Under the pieces are notes generated by a model. That model was not told the DNA's origin. It saw only the letters and a list, made by a program, of their open reading frames with translations, and did not search any database. 26,729 nt of DNA. Origin: a virus. Positions 3,598 to 23,618 of this stretch are shown here, in pieces (the first letter of the stretch is position 1; the number at the start of each line of letters is the position of its first letter). The translations under genes and the position numbers were made by a program. Location of the stretch: IMG/VR virus record IMGVR_UViG_3300047564_006411, positions 1-26,729 of that record; one strand, 5' to 3'.

Positions 3598-3657
3598 AAA
3601 TCTTTAATCTGTAAGATATTGAGACAAATTATGCTGCATGGTGCAGCTGGAGTAAAA

Positions 3658-6078
3658 ATGACATCAAGTAGTCGGCCAGAATTTAATGTTAGCGATGTGC
3701 CAGAGCAGCTACCAATCCTGCCTCTGCGCAATAGCGTGTTTTTCCCAGGCGCGGTAATGCCGCTCACCATTGGTCGTCCAAAGACGATTCGCCTTATTGA
3801 GGAGACCATGCGCGAAAACTCTCTAATTGGCATTGTTGCGCAGCGCTCGCCAGAGATTGACGATCCGACTCCAACGGACCTTTATCAGGTAGGCACAATT
3901 GCTCGAGTAATTAAGCTTACGCGTACCGGCAAAGAGGGTTTTTCAATTGTAGTCGAAGGCCTTGCCCGCTTCAAGACTGACGAAGTTACCCAGACCGACC
4001 CTTATTTCTTTGCTCGCGTCACGCCGCTACTTGACGTAGGCGGCAGCGATCCAGATGCCGCTACTCTGGCCACTACAGTAAAAACCACTGCTCGCGAAAT
4101 TGTCGACATGTTGCCAGAGATGCCTGTTATGGCCAAGCAGCTTCTCGAGAGCATCTCTGATCCCGGCCATCTTGCAGACCTGATCACTGCGAATATGGAT
4201 GCGATGATCGAAGAAAAGCAGGAAGTCCTGGAGTCACTTAACGTCAAGAATCGCTTGAAGACCGTTCTCAATCTACTTAACCAGCAGGCAGAGGTTGCCA
4301 AGCTATCGAACAAAATTAACTCGCAGGTTAAAGGCGAGATGTCGAAGTCGCAGCGCGAGTACTACCTGCGTCAGCAGATGAAGGCCATCAAGGACGAGCT
4401 CGGCGAACGAGAGGATGACGAGAGCGGCCTAGAAGAGCTCGAGCGCCGGCTCCGCAATGTTGGCCTTTCGGAAGAGGCCGAGAAGGCGGCCAACCGCGAA
4501 CTGCGGCGCCTGCGCAATATGCAGCCAACACAGGCCGAGTACACGGTGGCGCGCACCTATCTCGAGTGGCTCGCCGATATGCCGTGGTCAACCTCCTCGG
4601 TTGACAACCTTGATATCAGCAATGCCCAGCGTCAGCTTGACGAGGATCACTATGGTCTTGAGAAGATCAAGAAGCGTATCGTCGAGTACCTTGCTGTACG
4701 CAAGCTGAAGAGCGACATGAAAGGCCCAATCCTGTGTTTCGTCGGTCCTCCAGGCGTAGGCAAGACGTCGCTCGGGCGTTCAATTGCCGATAGCCTTGGC
4801 CGTAAATTCGGCCGCATTGCCCTTGGTGGTGTACGTGACGAAGCCGAGATCCGCGGTCATCGTCGTACCTATATCGGCGCACTACCTGGTCGCCTTATCC
4901 AGGCGATGAAAAAGGCCGGCACAACAAATCCAGTTATTCTGCTGGACGAGATCGACAAGCTTGGTCATGACGTTCGCGGTGATCCCGCTGCGGCTCTGCT
5001 AGAGGTTCTTGATCCAGAGCAGAACAATAGCTTCAATGATCACTACCTTGATCTTCCATACGACCTGTCGAAAGTACTCTTTATTGCCACCGCGAACCAG
5101 CTCGACACGATCCCGGCGCCGCTCCGCGACCGCATGGAAATTATCGAAGTTCCAGGCTATACATTTGAGGAGAAACTCAATATCGCCAAGCAGCACTTGG
5201 TGCCAAAGCAGATGCGCGAGCACGGCATTACGGATGCCCACATCGAGATTCCTGATGCGACGCTGCTCAAACTGGCGACGAGCTATACGCGAGAGGCCGG
5301 GGTGCGCAATCTTGAGCGCGAGGTAGCTGGCGTTTGCCGGGGCGTAGCGGTTGATGTGGCGAAGCACGACGAGAGCGCCGGAGCTTTTAATCGAGTAACC
5401 GTAGATGTATCGAAGCTAGATGATATCCTCGGTGCCGAGCGCTACTTCAATGAGACCGCCGAGCGCACATCTGTTCCTGGCGTTGCAACCGGACTTGCCT
5501 GGACGGCAGCAGGCGGCGACTTGCTTTTCATCGAGGCAACGCGGATGGGCGGCAAAGGCTCGCTTATCTTAACAGGTCAGCTGGGTGATGTCATGAAAGA
5601 GTCAGCGCAGGCTGCTATGTCATGGATACGCAGCAATGCTGTCGACCTAGGAATTTCGAATGACCAGTACGATCACTTCCTCGAGAAGAGCGACCTACAC
5701 CTGCACTTCCCAGCAGGCGCAATTCCAAAAGATGGTCCATCGGCAGGAGTAACAATTACTACCGCAATTGTTTCCCTATTAACTGGAAAGAATGTGCGTT
5801 CAGATACTGCGATGAGTGGAGAGATTACTCTGCGCGGACATGTTTTACCAGTAGGCGGCATAAAGGAAAAGGTTCTTGCTGCGCACCGTGGAGGCGCTCG
5901 CAGGGTAATTCTGCCCGCCCGAAATGAAAAGGATCTGCGGGACATCCCAAAGAATGTTCGTGAAGAAATGGAGTTCATCTTTGCCAAGACGGTTGACACC
6001 GTGCTGGAGAATGCACTCGAAGGCGGGTTTCATTTCCGGATGACCGGGGATGCGACCGTGCCACGGGCCGATGCCTGA
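3658..6078 (+). CDS. lon: ATP-dependent Lon protease, full length
   Basis: An 806-residue bacterial-type (LonA) protease: N-terminal substrate-binding domain ([19 protein letters not shown]), helical linker, AAA+ module and Ser-Lys peptidase. Walker A is GPPGVGKT at residues 363-370; Walker B LLDEID has Asp430 and Glu431; sensor-1 region is FIATANQ. The peptidase dyad is Ser695 in KDGPSAG and Lys738 in GGIKEK, 43 residues apart, as in E. coli Lon (784 aa). All catalytic elements are intact, so it should degrade unfolded or specific regulatory proteins in the cytoplasm. The ATG at 3658 has GGAG five bases upstream, and the first Lon-like residues follow it; ATGs at 3619-3631 lack a good site. 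It appears to be a single-gene unit ended by the terminator at 6084. Phage-borne full-length Lon is unusual. Confidence 0.97.
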
Positions 6079-7893: not shown

Positions 7894-10569
7894 ATGAAAG
7901 CAAGAGAAATTGCATTTGGTAAAGAGGCGCAAGACAAGATCGTTCGCGGCCTCGAGAAGACAGCAAAGGCCGTGCAGAGCACACTAGGTCCTCGCGGCAG
8001 GAATGTTCTTATTCAGACACCAACTGGGTATCAGTTTACTAAAGACGGCATTACTGTTGCCAAGAACGTAGAGTTTAAAGATGCATTCGAGAACATGGGT
8101 GCGCAGCTGGCTCGTGAAGCCGGCAATCGCTCGGTACGAGCTGCGGGCGATGGCCCGCAGCCCCTTTATGCCAAGGTTCTAACGCCCAACGGCTATGTGG
8201 CTATTTCTGATCTAAAGGTCGGCGATACTGTTTGCGGCACCAACGGCACGCTTCAAAAGGTCGAGGGAGTATTTCCAAAGGGAGTACGGAAAGTTCTAAA
8301 GGTTAAGCTGACAGACGGGCGCGTTGCAGAGTGCTGCGAAGACCATCTATGGTCAGTTGTCGACTATTTCGACACGCCCCGCACCCTCACCACAAAAGAG
8401 ATTATGAAGAATGGCCTGCGAATAAAGAGCAACAATGGCCACCGCTACTTTGTGCCTGTATCACATGCCGAGTTTGAGACAAAAGACCAGGCCCTTGATC
8501 CATATCTAATTGGCCTTCTTCTGGGCGATGGCTCTCTTACTGGCACCGGCTCAGTAGAGCTGTCGCTTGGCTACAAGAAAGAGCACGTAATTGATAAAAT
8601 TCGCTTGCCTGATGGCCTGTACCTTAAGGCTAGAAAGATTCCTGGCAAGAATTATATTCGAGTAAAGATCCAGGGCACTACTGCAGACGGGCGCTCTATT
8701 CGTGATATTCTCGAAAACATAGGACTCTTTGGCGTAAATAGCCTTGAAAAGAGCATCCCTAAAAACTATCTATACGGAGATCGACAGCAGCGCACACAAC
8801 TGCTACAGGGCCTTATCGATACGGATGGACACATCAATGACCGTGGATTGGCTGAGTTTACGTCATTTAGCAAGCAGCTGGCTGATGACGTACTCGAGCT
8901 CTACCGTGGACTGGGCTTCCAGACCTGGAGTGGCACGATTGAGCGCAAAGGCTATTCGTCGAACCCCAGTCACCGTGTGTTTCAGCTGAAGGGCAATAAG
9001 CATGGACTGGCCATTACTGAGATCGAAGATACGGGTATTTCCACTGAGATGATGTGCATCAAGGTCTCAAATCCTGATCACCTTTATTTCACAGACAATT
9101 ACGTTCTCACGCACAACACCACTTCCACGATCACACTGCTAAATGCAATTGTTCAAGAAGGAAAGCGCCAGATTAGCCTTGGCACAGACCCGATGAGCTT
9201 GCGTCGAGGTATTGATGCTGCATGCTCGCGTATTGTAAAGTGGGTTGAAGACCAGGCCGTGCCAGTAAAGGGCATGGAAGACCTGCTGCGTGTTGCCACT
9301 ATCTCTGCTAATGGTGACGGGGAAATCGGCAGGATTATTGCCGACACACTTGACAAGGTAGGCGCGGATGCGACCGTTACCCTTGAAGAGGGCAAAGGCA
9401 ATACAACCAAGGTCACGCTTACAAAAGGCTTCGAGTTCGACCGCGGCATGGTAACCGAGCACTTTATGCGCGATTTTGAAAAACAGCGTACCGTATATGC
9501 CGACTCGATTGAGGACGGCATTCTTGCCCAGACGGATGCGCGTTTTTCAAACGCAGAAGATCCACGAAGCGCCTACGTCTGGCTAATTAATGGTCGACTC
9601 GGCAGCCTGGCTCAGGCAGAGGTTCGTGAGTCATTTACTGCAATCCTTAACATGATTCACCAGACGAATGTTCCTCTGCTTATTGTTGCAGAGGCAATCG
9701 AGGGCGACGCCCTAAAGCTGCTCGCACAGAACGCTATGCGCGGCATTCTTAATGTAGTTGCCGTCCGTGCGCCTGGCTTTGGTCAGGATCGGCGCGACCT
9801 AATGGAGGACCTTGCTACTGCTACCGGTGCCAAGGTTCGACGTACCGATGCCGGCGACTCGCTATTTGAAGACTTTTCTCTTGCTGAGCTTGGCACTGCG
9901 CGCTTCGTCCAGGTTGGGCTTGACAAGACGATCATCATTCCCCCAGATGCACAGGCCGAGTCAATCGAGCGCCGCGTATCTGAGATTGACGCTAAAATTG
10001 CCGTCACAACAGAAGATGACTTCCGTCATACTCTTACTCGTCGCCGGTCGATGCTGACGGGCGGCGTCGCAAACATTATTGTCGGAGGTCGATCTGACGC
10101 AGAGGTGCGCGAGAAGCGCGATCTTTATGAAGATGCTCTGCTCGCTGCCCGGGCGGCTGCGCAATCTGGCATTGTACCTGGCGCAGGCACTATGCTTATC
10201 CGCGCTTCAGACATGCTTGGTGAATTTAGTACCGAGAATGAAGAGCAGAACGTAGGCGTGCATATTCTTAAGAAAGCGCTGCTTGTGCCATTCCAGGAGA
10301 TTATCAAGAATGGCGGTGGCAGTGCCGAGGTTGTGCTGCATAATGTTCGTACTGCTGGTGATCGCCATGCCGGCTACGACAGCAATCGCAACGAGTACTG
10401 CAACCTGCTCGACCGCGGTATTATTGATCCTGCTCGAGTAATCGTAAGCGAGGTCGAGCATGCCTGCAGCATGGCGGGACTACTCCTTAGTACTGACGTG
10501 GTTATCGGGTTCGCTGATGAGCCCGACCTGGTGAGAGCACTGTCTGCCGCAAAAGCGCAAAATGCTTGA
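7894..10569 (+). CDS. groEL: GroEL-type chaperonin precursor containing an intein
   Basis: An 891-residue precursor: a 60-kDa-type chaperonin split by a 321-residue intein (residues 88-408). Joined exteins give a 570-residue protein. N-extein hallmarks are TLGPRGRNV, TKDGITVAKN (Asp51, equivalent to ATPase Asp52 of E. coli) and FENMGAQLAREAGN ending in AAGDG (Asp86, equivalent to Asp87). After the intein come TTSTITLLNAI, FDRGMVTEHF, AMRGILNVVAVRAPGFG and EDALLAARAA (equivalent of Asp398). The apical domain is about 28 residues longer than in E. coli between HF and PLLIVAEAIEG, and the C-terminus lacks the Gly-Gly-Met tail. ATG 7894 has GGAG six bases upstream; a start at 7858 would overlap the preceding gene. 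No groES is seen in this window; some phage chaperonins are known to work without one. A strong terminator follows. Confidence 0.96.
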   Translation: MKAREIAFGKEAQDKIVRGLEKTAKAVQSTLGPRGRNVLIQTPTGYQFTKDGITVAKNVEFKDAFENMGAQLAREAGNRSVRAAGDGPQPLYAKVLTPNGYVAISDLKVGDTVCGTNGTLQKVEGVFPKGVRKVLKVKLTDGRVAECCEDHLWSVVDYFDTPRTLTTKEIMKNGLRIKSNNGHRYFVPVSHAEFETKDQALDPYLIGLLLGDGSLTGTGSVELSLGYKKEHVIDKIRLPDGLYLKARKIPGKNYIRVKIQGTTADGRSIRDILENIGLFGVNSLEKSIPKNYLYGDRQQRTQLLQGLIDTDGHINDRGLAEFTSFSKQLADDVLELYRGLGFQTWSGTIERKGYSSNPSHRVFQLKGNKHGLAITEIEDTGISTEMMCIKVSNPDHLYFTDNYVLTHNTTSTITLLNAIVQEGKRQISLGTDPMSLRRGIDAACSRIVKWVEDQAVPVKGMEDLLRVATISANGDGEIGRIIADTLDKVGADATVTLEEGKGNTTKVTLTKGFEFDRGMVTEHFMRDFEKQRTVYADSIEDGILAQTDARFSNAEDPRSAYVWLINGRLGSLAQAEVRESFTAILNMIHQTNVPLLIVAEAIEGDALKLLAQNAMRGILNVVAVRAPGFGQDRRDLMEDLATATGAKVRRTDAGDSLFEDFSLAELGTARFVQVGLDKTIIIPPDAQAESIERRVSEIDAKIAVTTEDDFRHTLTRRRSMLTGGVANIIVGGRSDAEVREKRDLYEDALLAARAAAQSGIVPGAGTMLIRASDMLGEFSTENEEQNVGVHILKKALLVPFQEIIKNGGGSAEVVLHNVRTAGDRHAGYDSNRNEYCNLLDRGIIDPARVIVSEVEHACSMAGLLLSTDVVIGFADEPDLVRALSAAKAQNA
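8155..9117 (+). mobile_element. Class 3-type LAGLIDADG intein within groEL
   Basis: Inserted exactly between the GDG and TTT-equivalent codons of the chaperonin ATP site. The first intein residue is Pro, not Cys or Ser; the last two are His-Asn and the +1 extein residue is Thr. Splicing block B (GRVAECCEDHLWSV) has His64 and Trp66 in intein numbering. Block F begins MCIKV with Cys301, and block G is LTHN with Thr319. Trp-Cys-Thr at these places is the signature of class 3 inteins, in which the block F Cys is the first nucleophile. The homing endonuclease is a two-motif LAGLIDADG type, LIGLLLGDG and LQGLIDTDG, with both acidic residues (precursor Asp212, Asp311) kept, plus a block D-like KSIPKNYLYGD. 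It appears intact for both splicing and homing; neither activity is shown by sequence alone. Confidence 0.93.
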
Positions 10570-10570
10570 A

Positions 10571-10604
10571 ACAAAGGGCCGACCCAACGGCCCTTTGTTT
10601 TTTT
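10571..10604 (+). terminator. Strong intrinsic terminator after groEL
   Basis: ACAAAGGGCCG (10571-10581) and CGGCCCTTTGT (10588-10598) form an 11-bp stem with loop ACCCAA, followed by a run of T up to 10604. It begins one base after the groEL stop. The ribosome-binding site of the next gene (GGAGAG, 10605) abuts it, so the downstream gene relies on read-through or on a promoter inside groEL. Confidence 0.93.
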
Positions 10605-10612
10605 GGAGAGCT

Positions 10613-11671
10613 ATGATAAATCTAGATCGCGCAGCATTGAATTCACCTTTTCCAAGGGTAGAGAGTACAATTGCAAAAGCGCTGCGCTTGCACAGGCCAG
10701 CGTCTAATTATATGGGTCAAGAGGCAAGAGATGCAATACTAGAGTGGAAAAAAAATATTGCAGATCAGCTGCAGCGCGACCATACGGATCTTAGTTTTTT
10801 TGGATCTGCAACTGCTGCAGTCAGATTTCTCACTGACAAGCTAAAGGGCAATGGCAATATCATATATTGCTCAGAAGTAGAGCACTCATGTTCCAGAGCT
10901 GTCGCAGACACGCTTCTGCCAGTAGACAGAGGCGGGCAGATTTCAGGTCGTTTGTGCGGAGAAGAACATGCACTTATAGTGAGTGCCAAGAATAATGAAA
11001 CAGGTCTTCGTTTAAGCGAAGATGCACGAAGAACTGTATCAGAGTTTCGTGATCGGGGAGGGATCTGCATTGTAGATGCAACAGGGGCCGACTGGAGAGA
11101 TCCGCTTGTCCTGGAGGCAGATTATATATTTGCATCAGCTGGCAAGTGGCACGGCTTGCCAGGACTGGGTTTGCTGGTTGGAACAAAAGGCATCTGGGAC
11201 AATCAAAATACAGAAGGTCTCGGCGGACTGGTCGCTGGCACACCTAACGCCCTTGGTATTGCATGCCTTGCTGATGCAATGGCTTGGATAAGTAGTTCAC
11301 ATGGAGTTGCATTAAAAGAAAAAGCAAAAAACTATAATGCAGTCTTTGATGAGGTTGCAGAGTCGCTTGGGTGGGAAAAGAATGGCTCAGGCGACTTTAT
11401 CACGAACTACTGCACAGGAATACCTTCAGAGCTTTTTGTTCATGCGGCTGGTGAAAAAGGTTTGAATATAAGTGCTGGGTCTGCTTGTAACTCCGGATTC
11501 ACTACAGGATCGCATGTCATCGGTGCAATGTTCGGAGAAGAGCGTGCGCAATGCAGTGTACGATTTAGTTGGGACAGGCTAACAAAAGAAACTGAGATTG
11601 CGGATGCTGTCGCAATTGTAAGAGAGATCGACAATGAACTAAAGGCACTTTTGCCTAAAGGAGATAGATAA
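10613..11671 (+). CDS. Cysteine desulfurase-like (NifS/IscS family) PLP enzyme
   Basis: A 352-residue class V aminotransferase. The family removes sulfur from cysteine as an enzyme persulfide for tRNA thiolation, Fe-S clusters or other sulfur transfer. Key places are kept: His91 (VEHSCS, stacks on PLP), NNETG (residues 127-131), Asp155 (IVDATGAD), the PLP Schiff-base Lys178 (ASAGKWHG) and the catalytic loop Cys292 (SAGSACNSG), with Arg317 in the following VRFSW strand. E. coli IscS is about 50 residues longer. The usual RSGT segment is VAGT here, so substrate binding may differ. ATG 10613 has GGAGAG two bases upstream, right after the groEL terminator. Its stop overlaps the next start (TAATG). 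No Fe-S scaffold or thiouridylase gene lies in the window, so its partner is unknown. Confidence 0.88.
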   Translation: MINLDRAALNSPFPRVESTIAKALRLHRPASNYMGQEARDAILEWKKNIADQLQRDHTDLSFFGSATAAVRFLTDKLKGNGNIIYCSEVEHSCSRAVADTLLPVDRGGQISGRLCGEEHALIVSAKNNETGLRLSEDARRTVSEFRDRGGICIVDATGADWRDPLVLEADYIFASAGKWHGLPGLGLLVGTKGIWDNQNTEGLGGLVAGTPNALGIACLADAMAWISSSHGVALKEKAKNYNAVFDEVAESLGWEKNGSGDFITNYCTGIPSELFVHAAGEKGLNISAGSACNSGFTTGSHVIGAMFGEERAQCSVRFSWDRLTKETEIADAVAIVREIDNELKALLPKGDR

Positions 11672-12342: not shown

Positions 12343-14817
12343 TCATGGTGAAGACGTGAATGCGGTGGTCACTGCTAGTGCCGTCAGAGTGTTTTGTATC
12401 TTTACGTTGTACGTAGCCACCGACGAATTGGAGTAGATGTTGTTGGAGTGCAAGAAGACGCCCGTGCCCTTTACGCAGTAGCCGGCCTGCTGCGTAACGG
12501 CTCCTCCCGTCGTCATGGTGCCCGTGCCCCCAGAGCAGCCGGTAAATGAAGTCGGCGTCTTACCTGTGTAGGTCACTACCTGAATTCCAGCAGAAGTGGT
12601 CACCAGCAGACTACCTGATGTCGTGAATGCAGACGTATTCGCAACGTTAATGGTGGCCTGCGGTAGTGCTTGTCCGTTACTGCCTGCGGCAATCGTCGTC
12701 GCTGCGCTCGATGCTACGGCGAACGTCGTCACGCCCGCACCAAGGGCTGCGCCAGCACCAACGGTAACGCCGCTGCCGTTGGTCGTGCTGTTCTTGATGG
12801 TGCTATAACCGAGCAAGACTGTCGTGCCTGCACCTGATACATCGACTACGCTGCCTGCTCCGTTCATTTCAATAAACGCCCCAGTAGATTCGACCGTTCC
12901 TGCTGTCGCCACTATTGCGCTCGCGCCACCAGCGAGCTCGCAACGATTTTTGATGAATGTATATTGGCCCGATTGACGGATCGCCGCCGCGCTCGTCGAC
13001 GTGATCTGCACAAGCGTATTGTCGAGCCAGATGCTCGACGTCGTACCACCCGATGAATATGTGTTGCTGTTGACGATGCCGTCGCCCGTAGCACTCGTAT
13101 TGTTAATATAGCAACCAGCGAAGCGCATACGGCCAGCTCCTGAGCCGCTAAATAGAACTGCCTGAGAGGCAAAAGATCCGTTGATCATCAGGTTCGAGAA
13201 GAAGTGCTCGTTTCTGTTTATGTTCATGCCACCAGTGGTCGGGCTAAATGTTATCGCTCCTATTTGAACCTGCTTGCCATTAACACCATTTAGGCCAACG
13301 AATGACATAGTCTTGTTTTCTGATAGCGTGACATCGCCCCACGTACCACTTGATTTTGGGCCGATAAGAATTACGTCGCCTTCGCCTGCCGCCGCATACG
13401 CTGCTGCAAGGCTCGCGTACTTGCCGCCCTCGACTAGCCAGAAGATATTCTGGCTTGCCCCTAGAGCAGGCATAGCGGAAAGCTGGCCCAGGTTAACCGC
13501 GTCTCCTGTAGCGCTACCGTCCGCAACATTCCTTATTTGGACTCCATTTGCATCGATTTCTAGTGCGTCCAGCTTTAGTGGTACTGGTGAAAAATAGCCG
13601 TCTTTGGCTACGATTGTCGGCACAACAGCGCTTGCAGGCGGGACATACAGATCAACGTTAACATATGAACCATCTGCTACCGATAGCTGTGCAGTGTGAC
13701 CGGCATCGGTTATATTTATATTTGCTGCATCAATCGTCACTATGCCGGTTGATACGCTGCTCTGTACGGTTAGGGCTTCGACTGAAGCGTCGTAAAAGAA
13801 AACTTCTGTTGCATCAAGAATATCCTTTACGACTAGTGCTCGCGGATCTCCGCCAGAGATATTCACCGCGCCTGTAACAGAAAGCGTCTTAGATGCATCA
13901 CTCCAAGCGAACTCAGCGCTGCCGCCAAAGCCTCCGGCGCCATCATTAAATTGTACGGAGTCTGCTGAGCCGCCTGGCGAACCAGAGCCGGCTGCTGCCC
14001 ACGATAGACTGCCGGCGCCATCTGTAGTAAGCACCTCTCCGGCAGCACCATCAGCCGTGGGCATGGTAAATGCACCGCCAATGCTGACTGCTGCCGTACC
14101 GCCGACCTGTACCGTAGTGGATGCGTCAACTGTCAGCGTGCCGGCATCGGTGACTAGAGATGTCGATGTGAGCGTAGCTGTATTGCCGCCATCGGTAACA
14201 TTAATTGTATTCGTGACCTCCAGGGAAAGAGTACCGCTGTTGTAGGCAAGGTCTGAGCTGCCTGTTATTCCAGTTCCGTCACCTACAGCAATATTTGTTA
14301 GGCCAACGTTCGTGCTTGCAGGAGTAGCTGCTGCCCATGCGCTACCGTTATAAGTCAGCACATCGCCAGTTGCTACGCCTGTAGTGCCGATAGAGATTGT
14401 TGGAGTTGTTCCACCAGAAGACACCAGAGGTGTAGATGCACCAACGGAGGATACGCCGCCACCACCACCTGATAGCCACTTGAGTTCGCCGCCTTCAAAA
14501 CCCAGAACGGCGCCTTCGAAATAGGCATTCGATGTCGAAAATGAGTCCGCTGATACCCCCGACCCTACGTGCGTAGGGTTTACAAAATCAATGACTCTGA
14601 TGGCATTTAAGACCTTCCAAAGTCTATAGATTTCGCCGCCAGGCGATTCTAGTTCTTTCAAAACTGTCGAGGTCAGTGAGCCAAACTCATTGTACTCTAA
14701 TTCGGAGTACAGATCTCTTTCCTCGCCAGGACGAAGCTTTACTTTGCCGAGTATGTTTACGTCATAGCGTGATATATTCCTTATAACAAGCCTAGGTCTA
14801 AGTGGATTAAAAACCAT
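12343..14817 (-). CDS. Tail fibre / adhesin with beta-helix C-terminal half
   Basis: An 824-residue structural protein. Residues 1-116 form a domain shared without gaps with the neighbouring 14833-17175 gene (74 of 116 identical by my count), probably the part that attaches to the tail. Residues about 120-450 are fibre-shaft repeats rich in Gly, Ser, Thr and Ala (for example SPGGSADSVQFNDGAGGFGG). From about 450 to 680 the short strand-turn pattern (FFSNLMINGS, MRFAGCYINNT, SIWLDNTLVQIT, TFIKNRCELAGG) looks like a right-handed beta-helix, a fold common in receptor-binding or polysaccharide-degrading tips. A Ser/Thr-rich module (QATINVANTSAFTTSGSLLV) near 725 precedes the C-terminus. GGAG is upstream of the start. 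It is the last gene of the minus-strand block, before the terminator. Enzyme activity cannot be claimed. Confidence 0.85.
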   Translation of the reverse strand: MVFNPLRPRLVIRNISRYDVNILGKVKLRPGEERDLYSELEYNEFGSLTSTVLKELESPGGEIYRLWKVLNAIRVIDFVNPTHVGSGVSADSFSTSNAYFEGAVLGFEGGELKWLSGGGGGVSSVGASTPLVSSGGTTPTISIGTTGVATGDVLTYNGSAWAAATPASTNVGLTNIAVGDGTGITGSSDLAYNSGTLSLEVTNTINVTDGGNTATLTSTSLVTDAGTLTVDASTTVQVGGTAAVSIGGAFTMPTADGAAGEVLTTDGAGSLSWAAAGSGSPGGSADSVQFNDGAGGFGGSAEFAWSDASKTLSVTGAVNISGGDPRALVVKDILDATEVFFYDASVEALTVQSSVSTGIVTIDAANINITDAGHTAQLSVADGSYVNVDLYVPPASAVVPTIVAKDGYFSPVPLKLDALEIDANGVQIRNVADGSATGDAVNLGQLSAMPALGASQNIFWLVEGGKYASLAAAYAAAGEGDVILIGPKSSGTWGDVTLSENKTMSFVGLNGVNGKQVQIGAITFSPTTGGMNINRNEHFFSNLMINGSFASQAVLFSGSGAGRMRFAGCYINNTSATGDGIVNSNTYSSGGTTSSIWLDNTLVQITSTSAAAIRQSGQYTFIKNRCELAGGASAIVATAGTVESTGAFIEMNGAGSVVDVSGAGTTVLLGYSTIKNSTTNGSGVTVGAGAALGAGVTTFAVASSAATTIAAGSNGQALPQATINVANTSAFTTSGSLLVTTSAGIQVVTYTGKTPTSFTGCSGGTGTMTTGGAVTQQAGYCVKGTGVFLHSNNIYSNSSVATYNVKIQNTLTALAVTTAFTSSP
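14470..14817 (-). repeat. Fibre N-terminal anchor domain, copy 1
   Basis: Encodes residues 1-116 of the 12343-14817 protein, alignable without gaps to the copy at 16828-17175. Shared blocks include YDVN, DxYSELEY, FGSLTS and YFEGAVLG, with GGELKWLS at the end of the homology. Confidence 0.85.
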
Positions 14818-14832
14818 AACTCTCCTCGCGGA

Positions 14833-17175
14833 TCAAAGTCCAGATGCCGTTATTGCTTTCTCTGCTTGGACCCATCTACCCGTATTATTGGTTGCTACTG
14901 GTAGCCATATAAACTTTATGATTGTGTTAGGCGTCAGCGTAATTGCCGCCCCGCCTTCGGTCCAGGTATTTGTGCTTGATGCCGGTATAATTATATTTCT
15001 GCTGCCAACATTGTGCAGAATGAGCTGGCGGCCCCATGCAGTGTTAAGCGGAGGCGCGCCTATGGGCGCCGTAGTCGACATCGTTAGACCTGCTGCGACA
15101 TTAGTTCTTATAGGTAGATAGCCTATGTCCGTGATTGCTGCAGTTGATATTGTATTTGACCCAGGAGAGAGTAGAAGCGAAGTAGTGCCAATCGGCGTAG
15201 TTACGTTATTAGGCACTATCAGGGGGCGCTCACTTCGAGTCTCTGGCATAACATATATGGACCCGCTGATTGCATTAACTGAAACAATAACGCCAACCAT
15301 TCTTGGGTAATACGGCTCTATTGGTCTTGCTGTGGTAAATCCGCCGATTACCGTAGGAGATACATATACTATGTCGCCGGACGACAACCCCACCGTGTTA
15401 AATCCAGTAACAAGCCCGCGTATTGCAATCATTATCTGACTGCCTGCATTTCCACTTGTTACTGCTATACCGAAAGTTGTATCTACTGACTCGAGCTCAT
15501 CTGCTTGGGCAAGAGATGCTGCGACATTATTATTGCTACCTGTGACATACACAATTTGCAGTGCATTTATCTGTGGCTGCTGAGTAGAAACCTGTGCCAT
15601 TATGTACTGTATTGATCCGGCAAGCGTTGGCTCGTATTGACCTGTAGCAGAATTATATTGCAAGACCTGGCCGTTAGCTGGTGCAGTTGTCGATACGCCG
15701 GTTCCATTTATTCCGGTCACAGTCAGCTGCCCCGAGGAGTTTAGGGTGGCGTCTTTGGACACAGGAACCGAAGCGAAAGCTGCGCCATTTGACACGAGAA
15801 TGTTGCCGGCGGCGCCACTTGCCGAAAGACCTGTTCCACCATTTGATACCGACAATATGCCAGACACCTCTGAAGAGTCTAATGCAACTGGAGATGCTGG
15901 AGACTGAAGTACACCATTTATGACGTGCACTATGCCGCTTCCCACTACTGCGGGAATTGTCGTATGTACGTGCGTAGGAGTGTCGTCACCAAAATAAAAA
16001 GAAACATCTACTCCAGCTGATATTGCAGTTGCCTCTAGCACAATATAGATGCGATCAGTTACTAAAATAGTTGTCTGCGGAAATGCAACTGATATTACAT
16101 ACTGAAATACGTCGGGTGGATGTACAACCGGTATTGGAGCAGATGAACCTAGAAGCACAGGAGCTACACCATCGTACTTATATATCTTGACTCTTACCAG
16201 GCACTCTCCGGCAACCATCGCAGTACTGGATGCCCAAATGTTAAAGTCCCATAGACCTGCTGGTAGGGTTGGTGTTCCAGGTATATTTATATCTGTCACA
16301 AATCCGACTACCTCGTCATAGATGCCTCCGGTAGATAGGTCGATCTTTGTCGCAAGCGTCTGAGGCAACTCTGGAGAGATGTTTAATTCCTGTATGCTGG
16401 GCGCTGTTAAGCCAGTTGTAGGTATATCTGGCGTTGTGCTATTATTAAAGAAATAAACAACACCGCCGCCGCCACTGCCACCTGCGGGAATTGCACCCGG
16501 CACCCAATCTGAGCCGTTGAATTGCAGCACCTGTCCTATTGCCGGAGTGATATCAGGAACAGGCCTGCCTTGCAAACCTGATACCGATGGAGAAGGATAC
16601 GTTCCGGACAAATCTCCTGAGGCTGCGCCAACAGGCTCTGCTGTAGAGGGAAATGTAATATCTATGTCTTCAGCATAGATTACTCTGCCTTTTGAGTCAA
16701 CAGTTATTCGTGGTACTATGGTAGGTGCTCCATAAACTCCTGACGCTACTCCAGTAGAGGCAAGTGATGGACTTGGGTACATGCCCGTTAAGTCTCCAGA
16801 GGCGGGGCCGACCGGAGGGGCGGACGGACTTAGCCATTTTAGCTCGCCTCCCTCCAGGCCCAGTACGGCACCCTCGAAATAGTCATTTGGAGTTTTAAAT
16901 GCGGTTGCCTCTATTCCGCTACCTGCAAATCCTGGATTTTCAAAATCCAGAATCTCTATATGACGACGAATCTTCCAGAGTAGGTATAGCTCTCCTTCGG
17001 GATTCTCAAGCTCTTTTATTATCTTGGAAGTAAGTGAACCAAAAGCATCGTACTCCAGCTCTGAGTAGATATCTTTTGTGTCGCCGGGTCTAATCTTGAC
17101 ACGATCAAATATATTAACGTCGTATTTTGAAATATTTCTTACTCTAAGTACTGGCCTAATTGGATTAAAAGACAT
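14833..17175 (-). CDS. Tail fibre protein, paralogue of the downstream fibre
   Basis: A 780-residue structural protein. Residues 1-116 match the N-terminus of the 12343-14817 protein; the rest is unrelated or weakly related. Two GDL(T/S)G.YPSPS segments (residues about 125-215) are typical phage fibre-shaft motifs. From about 240 to 420 an all-beta domain (VVYFFNNSTTPDIPTTGL, LPAGLWDFNIWASS, VSFYFGDDTPTHVHT) could be a lectin-like or knob domain. GILSVSNGGTGLSASG starts another shaft stretch. The C-terminus (TEGGAAITLTPNTIIKFIW) looks like a trimeric tip. AGGGG lies upstream of the start. Sharing an anchor with a different tip suggests two fibre types on the same attachment point, or successive parts of one fibre. 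Confidence 0.85.
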   Translation of the reverse strand: MSFNPIRPVLRVRNISKYDVNIFDRVKIRPGDTKDIYSELEYDAFGSLTSKIIKELENPEGELYLLWKIRRHIEILDFENPGFAGSGIEATAFKTPNDYFEGAVLGLEGGELKWLSPSAPPVGPASGDLTGMYPSPSLASTGVASGVYGAPTIVPRITVDSKGRVIYAEDIDITFPSTAEPVGAASGDLSGTYPSPSVSGLQGRPVPDITPAIGQVLQFNGSDWVPGAIPAGGSGGGGVVYFFNNSTTPDIPTTGLTAPSIQELNISPELPQTLATKIDLSTGGIYDEVVGFVTDINIPGTPTLPAGLWDFNIWASSTAMVAGECLVRVKIYKYDGVAPVLLGSSAPIPVVHPPDVFQYVISVAFPQTTILVTDRIYIVLEATAISAGVDVSFYFGDDTPTHVHTTIPAVVGSGIVHVINGVLQSPASPVALDSSEVSGILSVSNGGTGLSASGAAGNILVSNGAAFASVPVSKDATLNSSGQLTVTGINGTGVSTTAPANGQVLQYNSATGQYEPTLAGSIQYIMAQVSTQQPQINALQIVYVTGSNNNVAASLAQADELESVDTTFGIAVTSGNAGSQIMIAIRGLVTGFNTVGLSSGDIVYVSPTVIGGFTTARPIEPYYPRMVGVIVSVNAISGSIYVMPETRSERPLIVPNNVTTPIGTTSLLLSPGSNTISTAAITDIGYLPIRTNVAAGLTMSTTAPIGAPPLNTAWGRQLILHNVGSRNIIIPASSTNTWTEGGAAITLTPNTIIKFIWLPVATNNTGRWVQAEKAITASGL
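16828..17175 (-). repeat. Fibre N-terminal anchor domain, copy 2
   Basis: Encodes residues 1-116 of the 14833-17175 protein, the paralogous partner of 14470-14817. Similarity stops sharply after GGELKWLS, where the two fibres change to unrelated shafts. Confidence 0.85.
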
Positions 17176-17233
17176 ACCCCTGCCCCCTCATCTATAATTT
17201 ATTTAATTTTGAAACCTAGGCTCGCATACCATC

Positions 17234-20200
17234 CTATTGAGAGCTCAATCTCAATATGGCTGCCTCGAGAGCTGCTATTCTGGCTTCGGCGGCATCAGCA
17301 CGGGCTTCTGCGGCAGTAGCCTTAGCCGCGAGCTCCTGGCATGCTGCCACCACCAGCGGAACCAAGCGGCCCTGGTCAAGTCCTTGGTAAACCGGGTTGC
17401 CTTCGGCGTCCGCGGCGTCTTTCACACCTGACACTGCTTCTGGGACAACCGCCTGCACTTCATGCGCGATGAAGCCTTCGACCCGCGGGGCGTCAGTCGC
17501 AATACCCGTCATGCGAAAGCTGCACGGGCGCAAAGAGAGCAACCGAGTCAGCGGATCTGCAATGCCTTCGACCTCGCTCTTGACCCGATAGTCGGAGATT
17601 GAAGTGAAGTTGACGCCCCCAGCTCCGTTGCCGCCGATCAGACCCCGCGTTCCGCCGCCTCCGTAGAATACAACGAAGTTTGATCCTGTCGTCGCGCTTG
17701 AGTGCCCAATGCGAAAAACAGGAGTTGCGCCGACGCCAAAGCCGCCCGACTCTGAAAAGTCAATTCCGGGATTTGGCGTAGTTGTAGAAGTCGTGCCAAG
17801 ACGAAGATAGTCGTTGGTGCTGTTTCCGAGCGTGATGGAGTTTGTCAGTACCGAGGGCGAAGAAGCGCCTTGACCAATGACAATCGTGTTGTCACTGTTG
17901 CCGAAACCAACAGGTACGTCCGCGCCGTTGCCGATAATAACATTGTTGTCACCCGTGGTGATGCGAGAACCTGCCGACGTTCCTATCAGCGTGTTACCCG
18001 TCCCCAATGTGACGGTGCCTCCTGCTCCTGAACCCACAGCGACGTTGTTCATCGCAGTCGCCGTCGTGGGATTCTGTACGTCCAATGCACGGTAGCCGAC
18101 AGCAACGGAATCCGTGCCCTGCGTGTCAGCCAGTAGGGCAGCTTGCCCTACTGCAACGTTGCGCGTGCCTGACGTAGACGCGCCAAGTGCAGAATCGCCG
18201 ACAGCCACGTTGACCGACCCCGACGAAACAAGTTGTCCAGCAGAGGCGCCGACGAAAGCATTTTGAGAGCCCGTCGTAACAGCCTCGCCGGCCTGCCTGC
18301 CGACGGCTACGTTGGCCGAACCTGTCACGCTCGAATTCACGCCGAGCGCCCGGTATCCCAGCCCTGTATTTGAGCCACCGTTTGCCTTCCAGCCTGACTG
18401 ATAGCCGACGTAGGTAGACTGAGAAGCTGTAGAGTTCAAGTTGCCGGCAAAGTAACCAATGGCTGTATTTCCGCTGCCACTGGTATTTCCCGCCAGAGCG
18501 CCGGCGCCAATCGCCGTAACACCGTCAGCCGCGGCCGTCAATACAGCCGCCACCGCGCCCCAACCGATAGCCGTTACATAGCTTCCAACACTATTCGCAA
18601 ACAAAGATTGATAACCGACCGCCGTATTAAACTGACCCGATGTGTTAGCTGCTGAAGAACTCGACCCCACAGAAGTATTCTGACTTCCTGTGTTCGCGGC
18701 AAGGGCCGAATGCCCAACGGCAGCGCAGTCCGTTCCCGTCGTCACCGTGCCAAGCGCGTTGTATCCGACCGCGACGTGCCCAGTACCTGTCGTGTTCGCA
18801 TCAAGCGCGCCCGAGCCGACTGCCGTCAATTCCGATGCCGTATTGACAAGAAGCGCAGCTGCGCCGAGAGCGGTGTTGTCCGACGCTGTCGCCGCTGCGC
18901 CGAGGGCCGACGACCCTACGGCGGTGTTGCTCGCGCCCGTGGTGACTGCGTCGGCTGCTGAGGCTCCGACGGCGGTATTACTAGCGCCCGTGGCGACGGC
19001 AAGCGCCGACACGCCAAGGGCAGTCGAGGTCGCTGCGGCGCCTGCGTTTCCCCTGCCTATGGCAAGGCCGTTAATCTTGGCATCAGCACCTGAAACATCA
19101 AGCGCCGTGGACGGGACGCTTGTCCTAATGCCGAGTCTATTATTCGCCGCGTCCCACGTTAAGGCATCGCTACCAACCGCAGTTTCTGATCCAAGTGCCG
19201 CAGCCCCGGTAAAATACGCAAGCTGCGTTGCCGTGCCAGATCCGCTTACAATACTTATGTTGTCTAGCGTATCAAGTGCTGCCTGCACCGTATTATCAGC
19301 AGAGGAGAGGTTGCCGTTAAAAAGCGCAGTATTGGTATATATAGCGGTAGCAGGATGATCTGCATCAGAAAGCCCAGAGAGATTTCCATGATCATTTATC
19401 TGGCCGATTGGTAGAGCTGCAACATTTCTAAAATCGACATAGTCTTCGCCAGTATCTGTTGATACTATTCTGCCTTTAATTGCGTTAGTATAGCCGCTTG
19501 ATGTTTGAAATATAACAGTGCCAACTGGCACAAGCTCTGCAAATGGCAGGCCCGATAGCGTAGCCAGCTCGGTAGTTGCACCAGTTCTGGCGGCATTGGA
19601 ATTGTTATATTCATTTGTACCAAGTATTGCTATAACAGGATGAACTTTGTCATTTGTTGCCAATACGTGTACCAATACATAATTGTTGTTCGCCACTTCC
19701 TGGAGGCTCCAGGTTGTGCCATTGAAGTTATTATAGGCGAGTAGCGTGTTGCTTAAATCGTAACCGGAGACTGACCCCGGATACACGACAGGAAATGGAT
19801 CTATTGGTTTTCTTCGCCAGTCTCCGGCGGTACCTTCACGAAAAAACACAGGCAACCTGGATATTGGTGCCAGATCTTGTGGCGATCCATCAGTAATCGT
19901 ATGGATTATATCTTCATCATAGATTATGCCGTTTGCTACAGAAAAGTAGCCGTCGGCGCTGATGCCGCCCGAGCCATCGATTGAAAAATCGCCCAAACCC
20001 AGTCCATTTATATAGACCGCACCATTCGTATTGTGCAGATATATATGGGTGGCCCCATCCATGGCCATGCCGTGACGCTCTTCTCCGAAATAGATAGCTT
20101 GATTATTTGCAGCATCCCAGTATATAAGAGCTACATACGCATGATCTGTTATTATTGCCTGTGTAAAAGCCTGAGTATTTTGAAGTGTGTAGCCGTCAAA

Positions 20201-20425
20201 ATAGAAATGCCACAGCCCCTCTGTATCTGTGATCTGTGAGGTGGCTGCAGACAGATGCTTGTATTTTACGCCCTGTACATAGTATTCAAATGAATCAGAG
20301 ACTGGCGCAACTGAAAGTGTGCGAGTTCCATTGTCAAATGTCACGGCCGAATCAGTTCTATTGGGAAAACCGCTCGGTTCCTTAGACATGCCATATATTG
20401 TTTTTACGTTTGGATTATGTGACAT
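17234..20425 (-). CDS. Tail fibre with YadA-like repeats and C-terminal S74 chaperone
   Basis: A 1063-residue fibre protein. The N-terminus (MSHNPNVKTIYGMSKEPSGF) and first 350 residues are the presumed attachment and shaft part, including HGNLSGLSDADHPATAI, a recurrent fibre motif. Residues about 440-860 hold some two dozen imperfect repeats of the type NTAVG-SALG, like the head repeats of YadA-type trimeric adhesins. The last 120 residues are a peptidase-S74 intramolecular chaperone: SISDYRVK has the Ser944/Lys949 pair, then FIAHEVQAVVPEAV, and a C-terminal coiled coil (AARADAAEARIAALEAAI-like). Known members cut themselves just before this Ser after guiding trimer folding. The repeat and S74 half is distinctly GC-richer than the N-terminal half. 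GGAGG is upstream of the start. Confidence 0.93.
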   Translation of the reverse strand: MSHNPNVKTIYGMSKEPSGFPNRTDSAVTFDNGTRTLSVAPVSDSFEYYVQGVKYKHLSAATSQITDTEGLWHFYFDGYTLQNTQAFTQAIITDHAYVALIYWDAANNQAIYFGEERHGMAMDGATHIYLHNTNGAVYINGLGLGDFSIDGSGGISADGYFSVANGIIYDEDIIHTITDGSPQDLAPISRLPVFFREGTAGDWRRKPIDPFPVVYPGSVSGYDLSNTLLAYNNFNGTTWSLQEVANNNYVLVHVLATNDKVHPVIAILGTNEYNNSNAARTGATTELATLSGLPFAELVPVGTVIFQTSSGYTNAIKGRIVSTDTGEDYVDFRNVAALPIGQINDHGNLSGLSDADHPATAIYTNTALFNGNLSSADNTVQAALDTLDNISIVSGSGTATQLAYFTGAAALGSETAVGSDALTWDAANNRLGIRTSVPSTALDVSGADAKINGLAIGRGNAGAAATSTALGVSALAVATGASNTAVGASAADAVTTGASNTAVGSSALGAAATASDNTALGAAALLVNTASELTAVGSGALDANTTGTGHVAVGYNALGTVTTGTDCAAVGHSALAANTGSQNTSVGSSSSAANTSGQFNTAVGYQSLFANSVGSYVTAIGWGAVAAVLTAAADGVTAIGAGALAGNTSGSGNTAIGYFAGNLNSTASQSTYVGYQSGWKANGGSNTGLGYRALGVNSSVTGSANVAVGRQAGEAVTTGSQNAFVGASAGQLVSSGSVNVAVGDSALGASTSGTRNVAVGQAALLADTQGTDSVAVGYRALDVQNPTTATAMNNVAVGSGAGGTVTLGTGNTLIGTSAGSRITTGDNNVIIGNGADVPVGFGNSDNTIVIGQGASSPSVLTNSITLGNSTNDYLRLGTTSTTTPNPGIDFSESGGFGVGATPVFRIGHSSATTGSNFVVFYGGGGTRGLIGGNGAGGVNFTSISDYRVKSEVEGIADPLTRLLSLRPCSFRMTGIATDAPRVEGFIAHEVQAVVPEAVSGVKDAADAEGNPVYQGLDQGRLVPLVVAACQELAAKATAAEARADAAEARIAALEAAILRLSSQ
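17594..17596 (-). other. Predicted S74 self-cleavage serine codon
   Basis: This codon gives Ser944 of the fibre protein in the motif SDYRVK, five residues before Lys949. In characterised S74 chaperones (endosialidase tail spikes) the chain is cut immediately before this Ser, releasing the C-terminal chaperone. Cleavage here is inferred from the motif. Confidence 0.65.
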
Positions 20426-20441
20426 ATTTCCTCCGAACCGA

Positions 20442-23400
20442 TCAGATTATCCACCAAGCTGTGCCGTCAGACTGTATCTTTATTGCTTCGTACTGCGTAC
20501 TGAGGGGATAGGTCGTAGATCCATCTATTAGCTCAGAGGCATTTGCATCAACTGTAACAATGTTGGCCGTGACATCTTTTTTCTTGATGGTGAATATGCG
20601 TTCCGCTGATGAGGCCGCTGCTGGGAGTGTTATTGTTATTGCGCCCGAGCTAGCATCTACCAAGACAGTGCCGTCTGAAGAAGTCATTGTATAATTTGCA
20701 GTTTTTGTTGCAATCGGCGCAGTGTTATTCTGCGAGCTGGCAGAGACCCATGCTAGATTGCCGCTACCATCATTTGTCAATACTGAATTTAAAGATCCTT
20801 GGGTCGCAGGCCAACTTGTAGCGACATTATTGATTTTCAATATGTTGCCGTTGCTATCAACCTGGAACTTCTCAGCAACGGAAAAAGTTGCAGTAGGGGA
20901 TGCTGTAGAAATGCCCACTACATTTGCACTAGCATCGACGAACAGCATGTGCGTGTTCGTGTCGCTCTGCACCACGAAATCGACGTTCGGCGACCCGTCA
21001 GGGTTTGCCGTGACGGGACCGCCGTTCGCCGCAATCAAAAATGCGCGAGCGTTGCCTGTGTTTGAGTTTGTCCCGATGTGAATAGGCGTCGAATCGCCTG
21101 TCGTTCCGATAAACAGGTTTTGCGCTGATCCAGCGTACAGAGCAACGCCATTGTTCTGCAAGATACCCCAAGATGAGTTGCCGTTTGCCGACCCGTAAGC
21201 CGCCAAATACGCTTCGACGCCTACCGTATTCCCGGCGACGCGAACCTGCGACTGCGCCGCTGCGCCCGACGACGTATTCTTAGTCAGTGACGAAACGGTT
21301 ACTGCAGACTTCTCTACGGTCAAATCGGCAGACGGCGTCGACGTGCCGATGCCGACGTTGCCGCTGCTACCCTCGACGAACAAACCGTTTGCGCCCGCCG
21401 TGGTGGCGACGCGGAAATCAATGTCTTGCTGCTGCTTATTGACTACGACTTCCGTACCATCCGCGCGCAGTCGTTCGACATTCGCGGTTAAGCCGGGATT
21501 GCCGCCTTGCGCAAGCACTATGGGCGCGGAGGCTTCCACCGCAGCGATGACGATTCCGCCCGTCGCATTTGCATCGGAAAGAATCGTTCCTTGACTGTTG
21601 CCAAGAACACCACCGACACCTGCGCTAGAGTTTCTATACCCGAAACCAATGCTCTGCTGCGCGCCTTGTTGGAGGTAGAAGCTATGAGAGGCAGTTGCAG
21701 ACGGCTCAATAATCCCGACGTCGCCTGCCTGCACATGCAGCGCACTCGTCGGTGTCGAAGTGCCAACGCCTAAGCGGTTGTTCGCGGCATCCCAGGTGAA
21801 AGAATCGCTACCCACCGCTGTCTCGGAGCCAATTGACGATGCGCCCGAAAAGTACGCAATTTGCGTTGCAGTTCCAGAACCACTTATTGTGCCGCTTGCT
21901 GCTGGAGACCAAGACAGATTGCCTAATCCATCATTTGTTAAAACCGTGCTAGCAGCTCCTTGCAATGCCGGAAAACTGGTTGCAACATTATTAATCTTTA
22001 AAATATTACCATTATCATTAACCTGAAATTTTTCTGCGACAGACAGAGCTGTTGTAGGCGATACTGTAGCGATACCTACAGCATTTGCGCTCGCATCGAC
22101 GAACAACATATTCGCATTCGCGGCGCTCTCCACGCGGAAATCGACGTTTTCGCCATTTCCGTTGACGCCAACTTCACTCGATCCGAACCGCAGGCGTTCG
22201 TTGGCCGCCAGAAAGCCACCAGAACAAAAAACGATTGGGGCAGAAGTCGATAGCGAGCCGATCAGCAAACCTCCCGTTGCTCCGGTATCCGCGAGTAGCA
22301 GACCCTGTGAAGCGGTGAAAAGGCCGGCTGTGGCCGAAGCTTGATTGCGATACTGCCATGATACATTTCCGCCGGTAGCAGGCTCGATAAGATTAAGATA
22401 AGAAACGCCAGTTGTACTTGTATTGGTAATCGACTGACCGACTGTAGCTGAATTGCCATTGACCTGCAAGTTTGCCGTAGGAGTTGTAGTGCCGATACCA
22501 ACATTACCAGTCGCCGTAATCCTCATTCTTTCGTTAGCATCATTGAGCGCGCCCGTAATAAAGTTTATAGAGCCGGCTCCATTACTCGCAACAAGTGTAA
22601 CACCATTTGTACTGATATCGAGCAAGGCAGTACGGCCCGCTGCAAAGAGTGAGCCAGTAGAAAAGTGAACTAGGCCGCCATAATTTGACGAGTCCTGCGT
22701 TAGATAGAGGGCTGCCTGCGCAAATAGTCCTGTGCTGCTATTGTAGACATTGATCGAGGTGCCGGCATCTTGATTTCTTAGAACTGTTACAGGGGCTAGC
22801 GGTGAAGATGTACCTATTCCCAAATAGTTATTAGCATCGTCCCAAAACAGATTAGCATTATCTTGCGAGTAGACGCCGCTTGCACCAGCAAATACAACGC
22901 TGCCAGGCGTCAATGCGGTCGACGTACCCGTGCCGCCATTTGCAACAGCAAGCGTGCCGCCCAAAGTAAATGTACCAGAAGAGGTTATTGTCTGCGATGA
23001 TCCGCCAGAGACTGTGAGGCCCGTCGTGCTCGCATCTAGGGTAACCGATGTTACTGACCCGCCGCCAGCGGGCGCTGACCACGATAGATTTCCTGATCCG
23101 TCATTCGTCAGAACAGTGCCTGCCGCACCTGCCAGCGCGGGCCATAATACGTCTTGTCCGCCGGCCCCAAGAGTAAGGCTTCCCAATGCGGTTAAATATA
23201 CATCTGCATCACTAGAAAGTAATACATCCTCTGTTCCGGATACTGAAAATGAGCCATCGGCAGCACTTGTAGTAATCGAATTGCCGGCCTCATAAGCTGC
23301 CTGAAGACTGCTGCTTGCAGAAGATAGCAGGGCAAGCAGGCTATCTACGCTTATTTTGTTTAGCTCGGTAGAAGTATAATCTATGTACGCAAGGTAGCCA

Positions 23401-23618
23401 TCTAGTATCGGTGGGACGATTGGTGCCGCCAGGAACTCATCAAATAAGTAGCCATCTGCCCCGCCTCCGAGCCCCTGGTAAGGGCCTCCATCAAGCGAAA
23501 GCTCTATTCTGCCTAGCCCATAATTATACCTAATTATGGCGAATCCGGCCTCTGGCGTACCAAGACCCTCTCCAGATCTAAAAGTTAAAAAGGGCACCGT
23601 TTGTTTTTTCTGCGTCAT
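20442..23618 (-). CDS. Large tail fibre protein with duplicated modules
   Basis: A 1058-residue fibre protein, first gene of the minus-strand block. The N-terminus (PFLTFRSGEGLGTPEAGFAI, then IELSLDGGPYQGLGG) is typical of fibre attachment regions. The shaft is built from repeated modules: VLTNDGSGNLSW occurs three times in variant form, VGIGTSTP-like strands many times, and a 70-residue unit from MLFVDASANAVGI to GNLSW is present twice. One module (GSGTATQIAYFSGASSIGSE) is shared with the 17234-20425 protein. The last 90 residues (KTANYTMTSSDGTVLVDASS to SDGTAWWII) are a familiar fibre-tip domain. Start has GAGGAG upstream. Receptor unknown. Parts around 20940-21760 are GC-richer than the rest. 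Confidence 0.9.
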   Translation of the reverse strand: MTQKKQTVPFLTFRSGEGLGTPEAGFAIIRYNYGLGRIELSLDGGPYQGLGGGADGYLFDEFLAAPIVPPILDGYLAYIDYTSTELNKISVDSLLALLSSASSSLQAAYEAGNSITTSAADGSFSVSGTEDVLLSSDADVYLTALGSLTLGAGGQDVLWPALAGAAGTVLTNDGSGNLSWSAPAGGGSVTSVTLDASTTGLTVSGGSSQTITSSGTFTLGGTLAVANGGTGTSTALTPGSVVFAGASGVYSQDNANLFWDDANNYLGIGTSSPLAPVTVLRNQDAGTSINVYNSSTGLFAQAALYLTQDSSNYGGLVHFSTGSLFAAGRTALLDISTNGVTLVASNGAGSINFITGALNDANERMRITATGNVGIGTTTPTANLQVNGNSATVGQSITNTSTTGVSYLNLIEPATGGNVSWQYRNQASATAGLFTASQGLLLADTGATGGLLIGSLSTSAPIVFCSGGFLAANERLRFGSSEVGVNGNGENVDFRVESAANANMLFVDASANAVGIATVSPTTALSVAEKFQVNDNGNILKINNVATSFPALQGAASTVLTNDGLGNLSWSPAASGTISGSGTATQIAYFSGASSIGSETAVGSDSFTWDAANNRLGVGTSTPTSALHVQAGDVGIIEPSATASHSFYLQQGAQQSIGFGYRNSSAGVGGVLGNSQGTILSDANATGGIVIAAVEASAPIVLAQGGNPGLTANVERLRADGTEVVVNKQQQDIDFRVATTAGANGLFVEGSSGNVGIGTSTPSADLTVEKSAVTVSSLTKNTSSGAAAQSQVRVAGNTVGVEAYLAAYGSANGNSSWGILQNNGVALYAGSAQNLFIGTTGDSTPIHIGTNSNTGNARAFLIAANGGPVTANPDGSPNVDFVVQSDTNTHMLFVDASANVVGISTASPTATFSVAEKFQVDSNGNILKINNVATSWPATQGSLNSVLTNDGSGNLAWVSASSQNNTAPIATKTANYTMTSSDGTVLVDASSGAITITLPAAASSAERIFTIKKKDVTANIVTVDANASELIDGSTTYPLSTQYEAIKIQSDGTAWWII
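20747..20957 (-). repeat. Intragenic fibre module, C-terminal copy
   Basis: Encodes the unit MLFVDASANVVGIST through FSVAEKFQVDSNGNILKINN to GNLAW. A second copy lies about 1.15 kb away in the same gene (21903-22113). The two are similar at both DNA and protein level. Boundaries are approximate. Confidence 0.75.
21903..22113 (-). repeat. Intragenic fibre module, central copy
   Basis: Encodes MLFVDASANAVGIAT through LSVAEKFQVNDNGNILKINN to GNLSW, paralogous to 20747-20957. A shorter relative of its C-terminal end is seen near 23045-23160. This suggests growth of the fibre by internal duplication. Boundaries are approximate. Confidence 0.75.

Follow-up and report, generated by a model that had tools for sequence, protein, structure and literature searches.

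Class 3 inteins are defined by a Trp at position B:12, a Cys at F:4 and a Thr at G:5; further marks of the class are a non-nucleophilic residue 1 and a +1 residue that is usually Ser or Thr (PMC5222942, PMC7664689). The class is described as monophyletic (PMC3196547), and its splicing proceeds through an obligatory branched intermediate at Cys F:4. Its members in P-loop NTPases (phage and bacterial DnaB, terminase and other ATPases) have in common with the element described here the Trp-Cys-Thr (WCT) residues, a non-nucleophilic residue 1, the Thr-His-Asn end, a Thr or Ser at +1, the layout of a HINT domain plus a LAGLIDADG endonuclease, and an insertion point immediately ahead of a Thr within an ATP phosphate-binding loop. 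On the host side, GroEL-like chaperonins occur in large phages, as here, examples being gp146 of phage EL and the chaperonin of phage AR9 (PMC7185714, PMC9598537). The EL chaperonin shares only 22% with GroEL, and the paper describing it mentions no intein (PMC7185714).

The window, that is, the whole stretch of DNA analysed, is a 26,729-bp virus record of IMG/VR. On its plus strand an open reading frame runs from an ATG at 7894 to a stop codon at 10569 and translates into a protein of 891 residues. Its outer parts are GroEL (Pfam Cpn60_TCP1, 3e-58; NCBIfam GroEL models, about 1e-136 to 1e-140). The N-extein (7894..8154, plus strand; residues 1-87, ending in AAGDG) aligns to residues 1-88 of GroEL in PDB chains, and the C-extein (9118..10569 including the stop, coding 9118-10566, plus strand; 483 aa, GroEL residues 88-570, beginning with TTSTITLL) matches GroEL in both PDB and NCBIfam. 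Between them lies an insert of 963 bp (8155..9117, plus strand) that encodes 321 residues, PQPLYAK to VLTHN, without any internal stop codon, so that the frame is kept throughout. The junctions, GDG/PQP and THN/TTS, correspond to the bond between Gly88 and Thr89 of E. coli or enterobacterial GroEL (Salmonella reference). Removal of the insert would give a GroEL of 570 aa (87 + 483) that retains the ATP-site residues Thr30, Gly32, Pro33, Lys51, Asp52, Asp87, Gly88, Thr89, Thr90, Asp398 and Asp495, including all five that we used to recognise the host protein as GroEL (Asp52, Asp87, Thr89, Asp398 and Asp495, E. coli numbering). The first-pass annotation had proposed that 321 residues split a phage GroEL between GDG and TTS, and our coordinates, the reading frame and the intein-free alleles described below all agree with it.

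The insert carries every mark of class 3. Residue 1 is Pro, hence not Cys, Ser or Thr. Block B (residues 55-68, 8317..8358, plus strand, as are all features that follow) contains His64 at B:10 (8344-8346) and Trp66 at B:12 (8350-8352); block F, EMMCIKVSNPDHLYFT (residues 298-313, 9046..9093), contains the putative initiating Cys301 at F:4 (9055-9057); block G, NYVLTHN (residues 315-321, 9097..9117), provides Thr319 at G:5, His320 and Asn321; and the +1 residue directly 3′ of it is a Thr (9118-9120). In HMMER alignments Trp66, Cys301 and the terminal Thr-His-Asn share columns with those of the class 3 intein MchDnaB1 and of the gp41-1 intein engineered to carry WCT, Cys301 falling on the catalytic Cys of MchDnaB1. 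The residue numbers given in the first-pass annotation for Cys301, Thr319 and Asn321 were correct, and the three diagnostic residues are in register at blocks B, F and G, which it had named as the point to check.

Between blocks B and F the insert contains two LAGLIDADG motifs, both intact: LIGLLLGDGSLT (residues 118-129, 8506..8541), with the acidic Asp125, and LLQGLIDTDGHIN (residues 216-228, 8800..8838), with the acidic Asp224, the second lying within a match to Pfam LAGLIDADG_3 (residues 214-262). HMMER searches also matched the insert to intein structures, including class 3 ones. An AlphaFold model of the intein reached a pLDDT of 94.2 and a pTM of 0.91, and its best matching PDB folds were PI-SceI and TliVMA, both of the HINT-LAGLIDADG type, while the splicing part matched the class 3 DnaB inteins 6rix and 6bs8. 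The alignments, the model and the fold matches point to a HINT fold with blocks A, B, F and G; the two helices, their acidic residues, the Pfam match and the fold match likewise identify a predicted LAGLIDADG homing endonuclease. The model of the whole precursor reached only a pLDDT of 75 and a pTM of 0.53 and was set aside.

Several other genes of the window were recognised. A full-length Lon protease (3619-6078; TIGR00763, 4e-304) lies a short distance upstream of groEL on this phage contig, and a class V aminotransferase or NifS-like gene (10562-11671) starts within the 3′ end of groEL. The minus strand carries a row of four large tail-fibre-like genes (12343-23618); two of them (12343-14817 and 14833-17175) have a common N-terminal stretch, NP.RP.L..RNIS.YDVNI, and another (17234-20425) ends in a Peptidase_S74 domain. 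An ORF of 564 aa (24423-26117) had no match in NCBIfam, PHROGs or Pfam; by eye, some of its stretches recall motifs of family A polymerases (MDFSNMHLSIL, KKILKVSLYSLQFG, HSHDGV).

Close relatives of this GroEL exist with and without the insert. In L004, encoded on a contig of 371,675 bp, and in L005, proteins 95-96% identical in amino acids, GDG is directly joined to TSS; the same holds for L179 and L180, at about 90% identity. On the other hand, L002 and L003, also on viral contigs, carry the intein. Since the gene is uninterrupted in close relatives, 8155-9117 is an insertion, and the empty alleles match, to the exact length, what splicing would leave behind. The element is hence an in-frame insertion with exact junctions that is absent from homologous alleles, as expected of an intein. 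In the clade of the window the intein-free alleles read GDG/TSS and the intein-bearing ones TTS at the C-junction, a difference that could reflect co-conversion or resistance of the site. GroES-like genes were seen both in the 371-kb intein-free relative (L182, G001:C1:330550-330798) and in an intein-bearing contig (L181, G008:C1:5112-5354). In the 371-kb relative, PF03237 and PF07068 had no match; a hit to phrog_2 (1e-11) was dropped as a phage marker because this family also matches 11 of 14 cellular control genomes.

The first-pass annotation had suggested looking for insertions at this position in other GroEL proteins, and the intein proved to be no singleton but one of a family of at least 29. 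Scans with the protein, with an intein profile and with a GDGPQP DNA pattern (a C-extein profile was too diverse for scanning and was set aside) yielded 29 distinct GroEL inteins, all of the form GDG/P...THN/T, interrupting GroEL at one identical bond and agreeing in their catalytic residues. Pro1, His64, Trp66, Cys301, Thr319, His320, Asn321 and Thr+1 are each present in 29 of 29, far beyond chance. The invariance of TEMMCIK and GDGPQP is partly a matter of ascertainment, because both also served as search patterns, whereas Trp66 and His64 never formed part of any pattern. The acidic residues of the endonuclease are less constant (Asp125 in 25 of 29, Asp224 in 27 of 29), and in L013/L035, L032, L219 (263 aa) and L243 the endonuclease is decayed or shortened while the splicing residues remain intact, as expected if splicing, and not homing, is indispensable. 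All but one of the 29 inteins lie on viral contigs. The exception, L095 (JAGYLR010000027.1), is binned as a bacterium; its GroEL groups with the viral L189 in the GroEL tree and, as judged from ORFs read by eye, apparent terminase, GroES-like, intein-split GroEL and portal genes adjoin one another, so that this contig is probably a phage too.

The distribution of the intein on the tree of GroEL exteins requires nine changes, at least eight gains or losses being forced by starred branches, and close pairs that differ in its presence are L007/L301, L011/L377, L003/L179 and the window/L004. Within a lineage the intein diverges 1.3-1.6 times as much as its exteins. Between far lineages the ratio of intein to extein divergence falls to about 0.2-0.4 (medians of 1.5-1.6 versus 3.6-6.6 changes per site); these low intein distances fit horizontal spread, with the reservation that saturation may compress them and that several GroEL branches are very long. 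In the comparison of the window with L003, dN/dS is about 0.05 for the intein (0.02 for the splicing domain) and 0.04 for the exteins, at a dS near saturation.

A lower intein dS was found between the window and L002 (0.05, versus 0.42 for the exteins), and recent homing was considered as its cause. This was rejected: sliding nucleotide identity stays at 97-99% between about 3.0 kb and the point where the intein ends, so that some 6 kb upstream are as close as the intein itself, and directly behind the intein, at about 9150-9300, it drops to 75-90%. Because the break in identity lies only on the 3′ side, it marks a recombination boundary and no homing island. Considering the whole family, an element that occupies the same spot in all its members and is missing from near-identical relatives looks like a mobile parasite that, judging from these sequences, would have jumped once into chaperonin genes and then spread.

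To place this jump we compared the family with related inteins of other proteins, of which 127 of 134 are inserted at GK/T or GK/S, in the Walker-A loop; residue 1 is Ala in 122 of these 134 and Pro in none. The site in GroEL is not of this kind, the host being a chaperonin and the target GDG/TT. In an unrooted tree of the 29 GroEL inteins and 41 P-loop inteins, which comprises only class 3-type relatives from this analysis, a branch with full support (SH-aLRT 100) separates the GroEL inteins from all the others. These sequences are most simply explained if the intein once left a Walker-A loop and entered the GDG-TT loop of chaperonins, which is unrelated to it; we only infer this direction, because the tree is unrooted. 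The N-junction would then have changed from Lys-Ala to Gly-Pro after the move, presenting an imide bond to the attack of Cys301. The Gly-Pro scissile bond, unlike the Lys-Ala of the relatives, might slow the first step.

We therefore consider it very probable that the element is a mobile class 3 intein which entered an ATP loop of non-P-loop type a single time and spread among phage groEL genes, and that the chaperonin can bind ATP only once the intein has spliced out. Following class 3 chemistry, Cys301 would attack the N-junction at its Gly-Pro bond, the chain would then be transferred to Thr+1 and Asn321 would cyclise, releasing a GroEL of 570 residues and an intein of 321 residues. Because the insert parts Gly88 from Thr89 (E. 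coli numbering), the precursor is soundly predicted to be unable to bind ATP; only after splicing would the GDG-TT phosphate loop be continuous and binding possible. As for mobility, the LAGLIDADG endonuclease would cut intein-free groEL genes at the conserved codons for GDG-TT, into which the intein would be copied. The lineage would thus lead from class 3 inteins at Walker-A GK/T sites, through one entry into chaperonin genes, to moves among phage groELs.

The first-pass annotation had correctly seen that the ATP site of this phage GroEL is interrupted by a class 3 intein, and sequence, predicted fold, homologues and empty-site alleles all support this assignment well. It had gone on to propose that splicing could act as a switch on the chaperonin. 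In a rival reading built on this idea, conditional splicing, for instance redox control through Cys301 and the nearby Cys60/Cys61, would time chaperonin activation and the intein would be kept for this purpose. The insert does block the ATP loop of an ATP-driven machine, and a precedent exists in the class 3 intein DnaBi1 of M. smegmatis, also located in an ATP site, which H2O2 inhibits by way of a Cys48-Cys118 disulfide (PMC6195587). Furthermore, Cys60 is conserved in 29 of 29 GroEL inteins and position B:7 is Cys in 20 and Ser in 9 of them, both positions lying in or beside block B. A disulfide partner like Cys48 of DnaBi1, however, is not conserved at the aligned position, which is Tyr or Leu in 26 of 29 (register through the MchDnaB1 alignment). 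Near relatives of several bearers have a GroEL without the intein, as a mobile selfish element predicts, and with so many relatives doing without it, the intein is unlikely to have a regulatory role that the phage needs; most members retain intact endonuclease motifs, which accounts for their persistence even if the phage gains nothing from them. We thus find no support for the switch and hold it to be very unlikely that the intein is retained as one. Our analysis leaves only slightly more room for a domesticated form, in which slow or redox-gated splicing across the Gly-Pro junction would set the timing of chaperonin activity during infection, and this too we regard as improbable.

It is highly improbable that the element is class 2-like or does not splice at all, folding but then only cleaving or remaining in place, so that GroEL would be dead or split. 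In favour of this reading, splicing is so far a prediction, and grafting of the WCT motif onto gp41-1 gave mostly cleavage (PMC7664689). Against this, dN is low in both exteins and intein, the exteins keep all ATP-site residues, and the catalytic residues persist in 29 of 29 even where the endonuclease has decayed (L013, L032, L219), which is expected only if splicing is needed. As every copy comes from metagenomic assemblies, an assembly chimera or a frame artefact was also weighed; we give it almost no credence, since one and the same junction recurs in 29 distinct sequences that come from many samples, their frames are free of stops, the splice boundaries are exact and the empty alleles are just as long as expected; these independent copies refute it. 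The mobile class 3 intein thus stands as our preferred reading.

The guess that such an intein had not been described before also held over what we searched. With two family members as queries, no GroEL intein was found in 50,697 phage records, the best matches being terminases and helicases at about 36%, and none was found in 72,556 plasmid records. No intein in GroEL or another chaperonin was found in the open-access literature searched, and where papers there on jumbo phages or phage-encoded chaperonins mention inteins, these lie elsewhere. The range of hosts of class 3 inteins is hence extended to a chaperonin. An intein lineage specialised in ATP phosphate-binding loops would have left P-loop NTPases for a nucleotide loop unrelated to theirs, in what looks like a single event, with a change of residue 1 from Ala to Pro. 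This makes testable how class 3 chemistry acts on a Gly-Pro scissile bond and whether splicing serves as a timer of a self-spliced folding machine, and the many pairs of alleles with and without the intein are natural substrates for homing.

Compared with known systems, the P-loop class 3 inteins reach at best 38% identity to the GroEL inteins, from which they differ in their host, in their site (GK/T and not GDG/TT) and in residue 1, Ala in most of them (122 of 134) and Pro in all 29 GroEL inteins. MchDnaB1 (6rix, 6riy) and Msm DnaBi1 (6bs8) have their active-site residues in register with those found here and a HINT fold like that of our model; unlike the GroEL intein, they are mini-inteins without an endonuclease and their host is a bacterial replicative helicase. 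The closest type of structure over the whole length is the VMA1 intein PI-SceI, with HINT and LAGLIDADG domains, but this is a class 1 intein (Cys1) in a eukaryotic V-ATPase. The class, its chemistry and a P-loop-like placement were thus already known, whereas the host family, the site, the clade with Pro1 and its spread are, as far as we have found, new.
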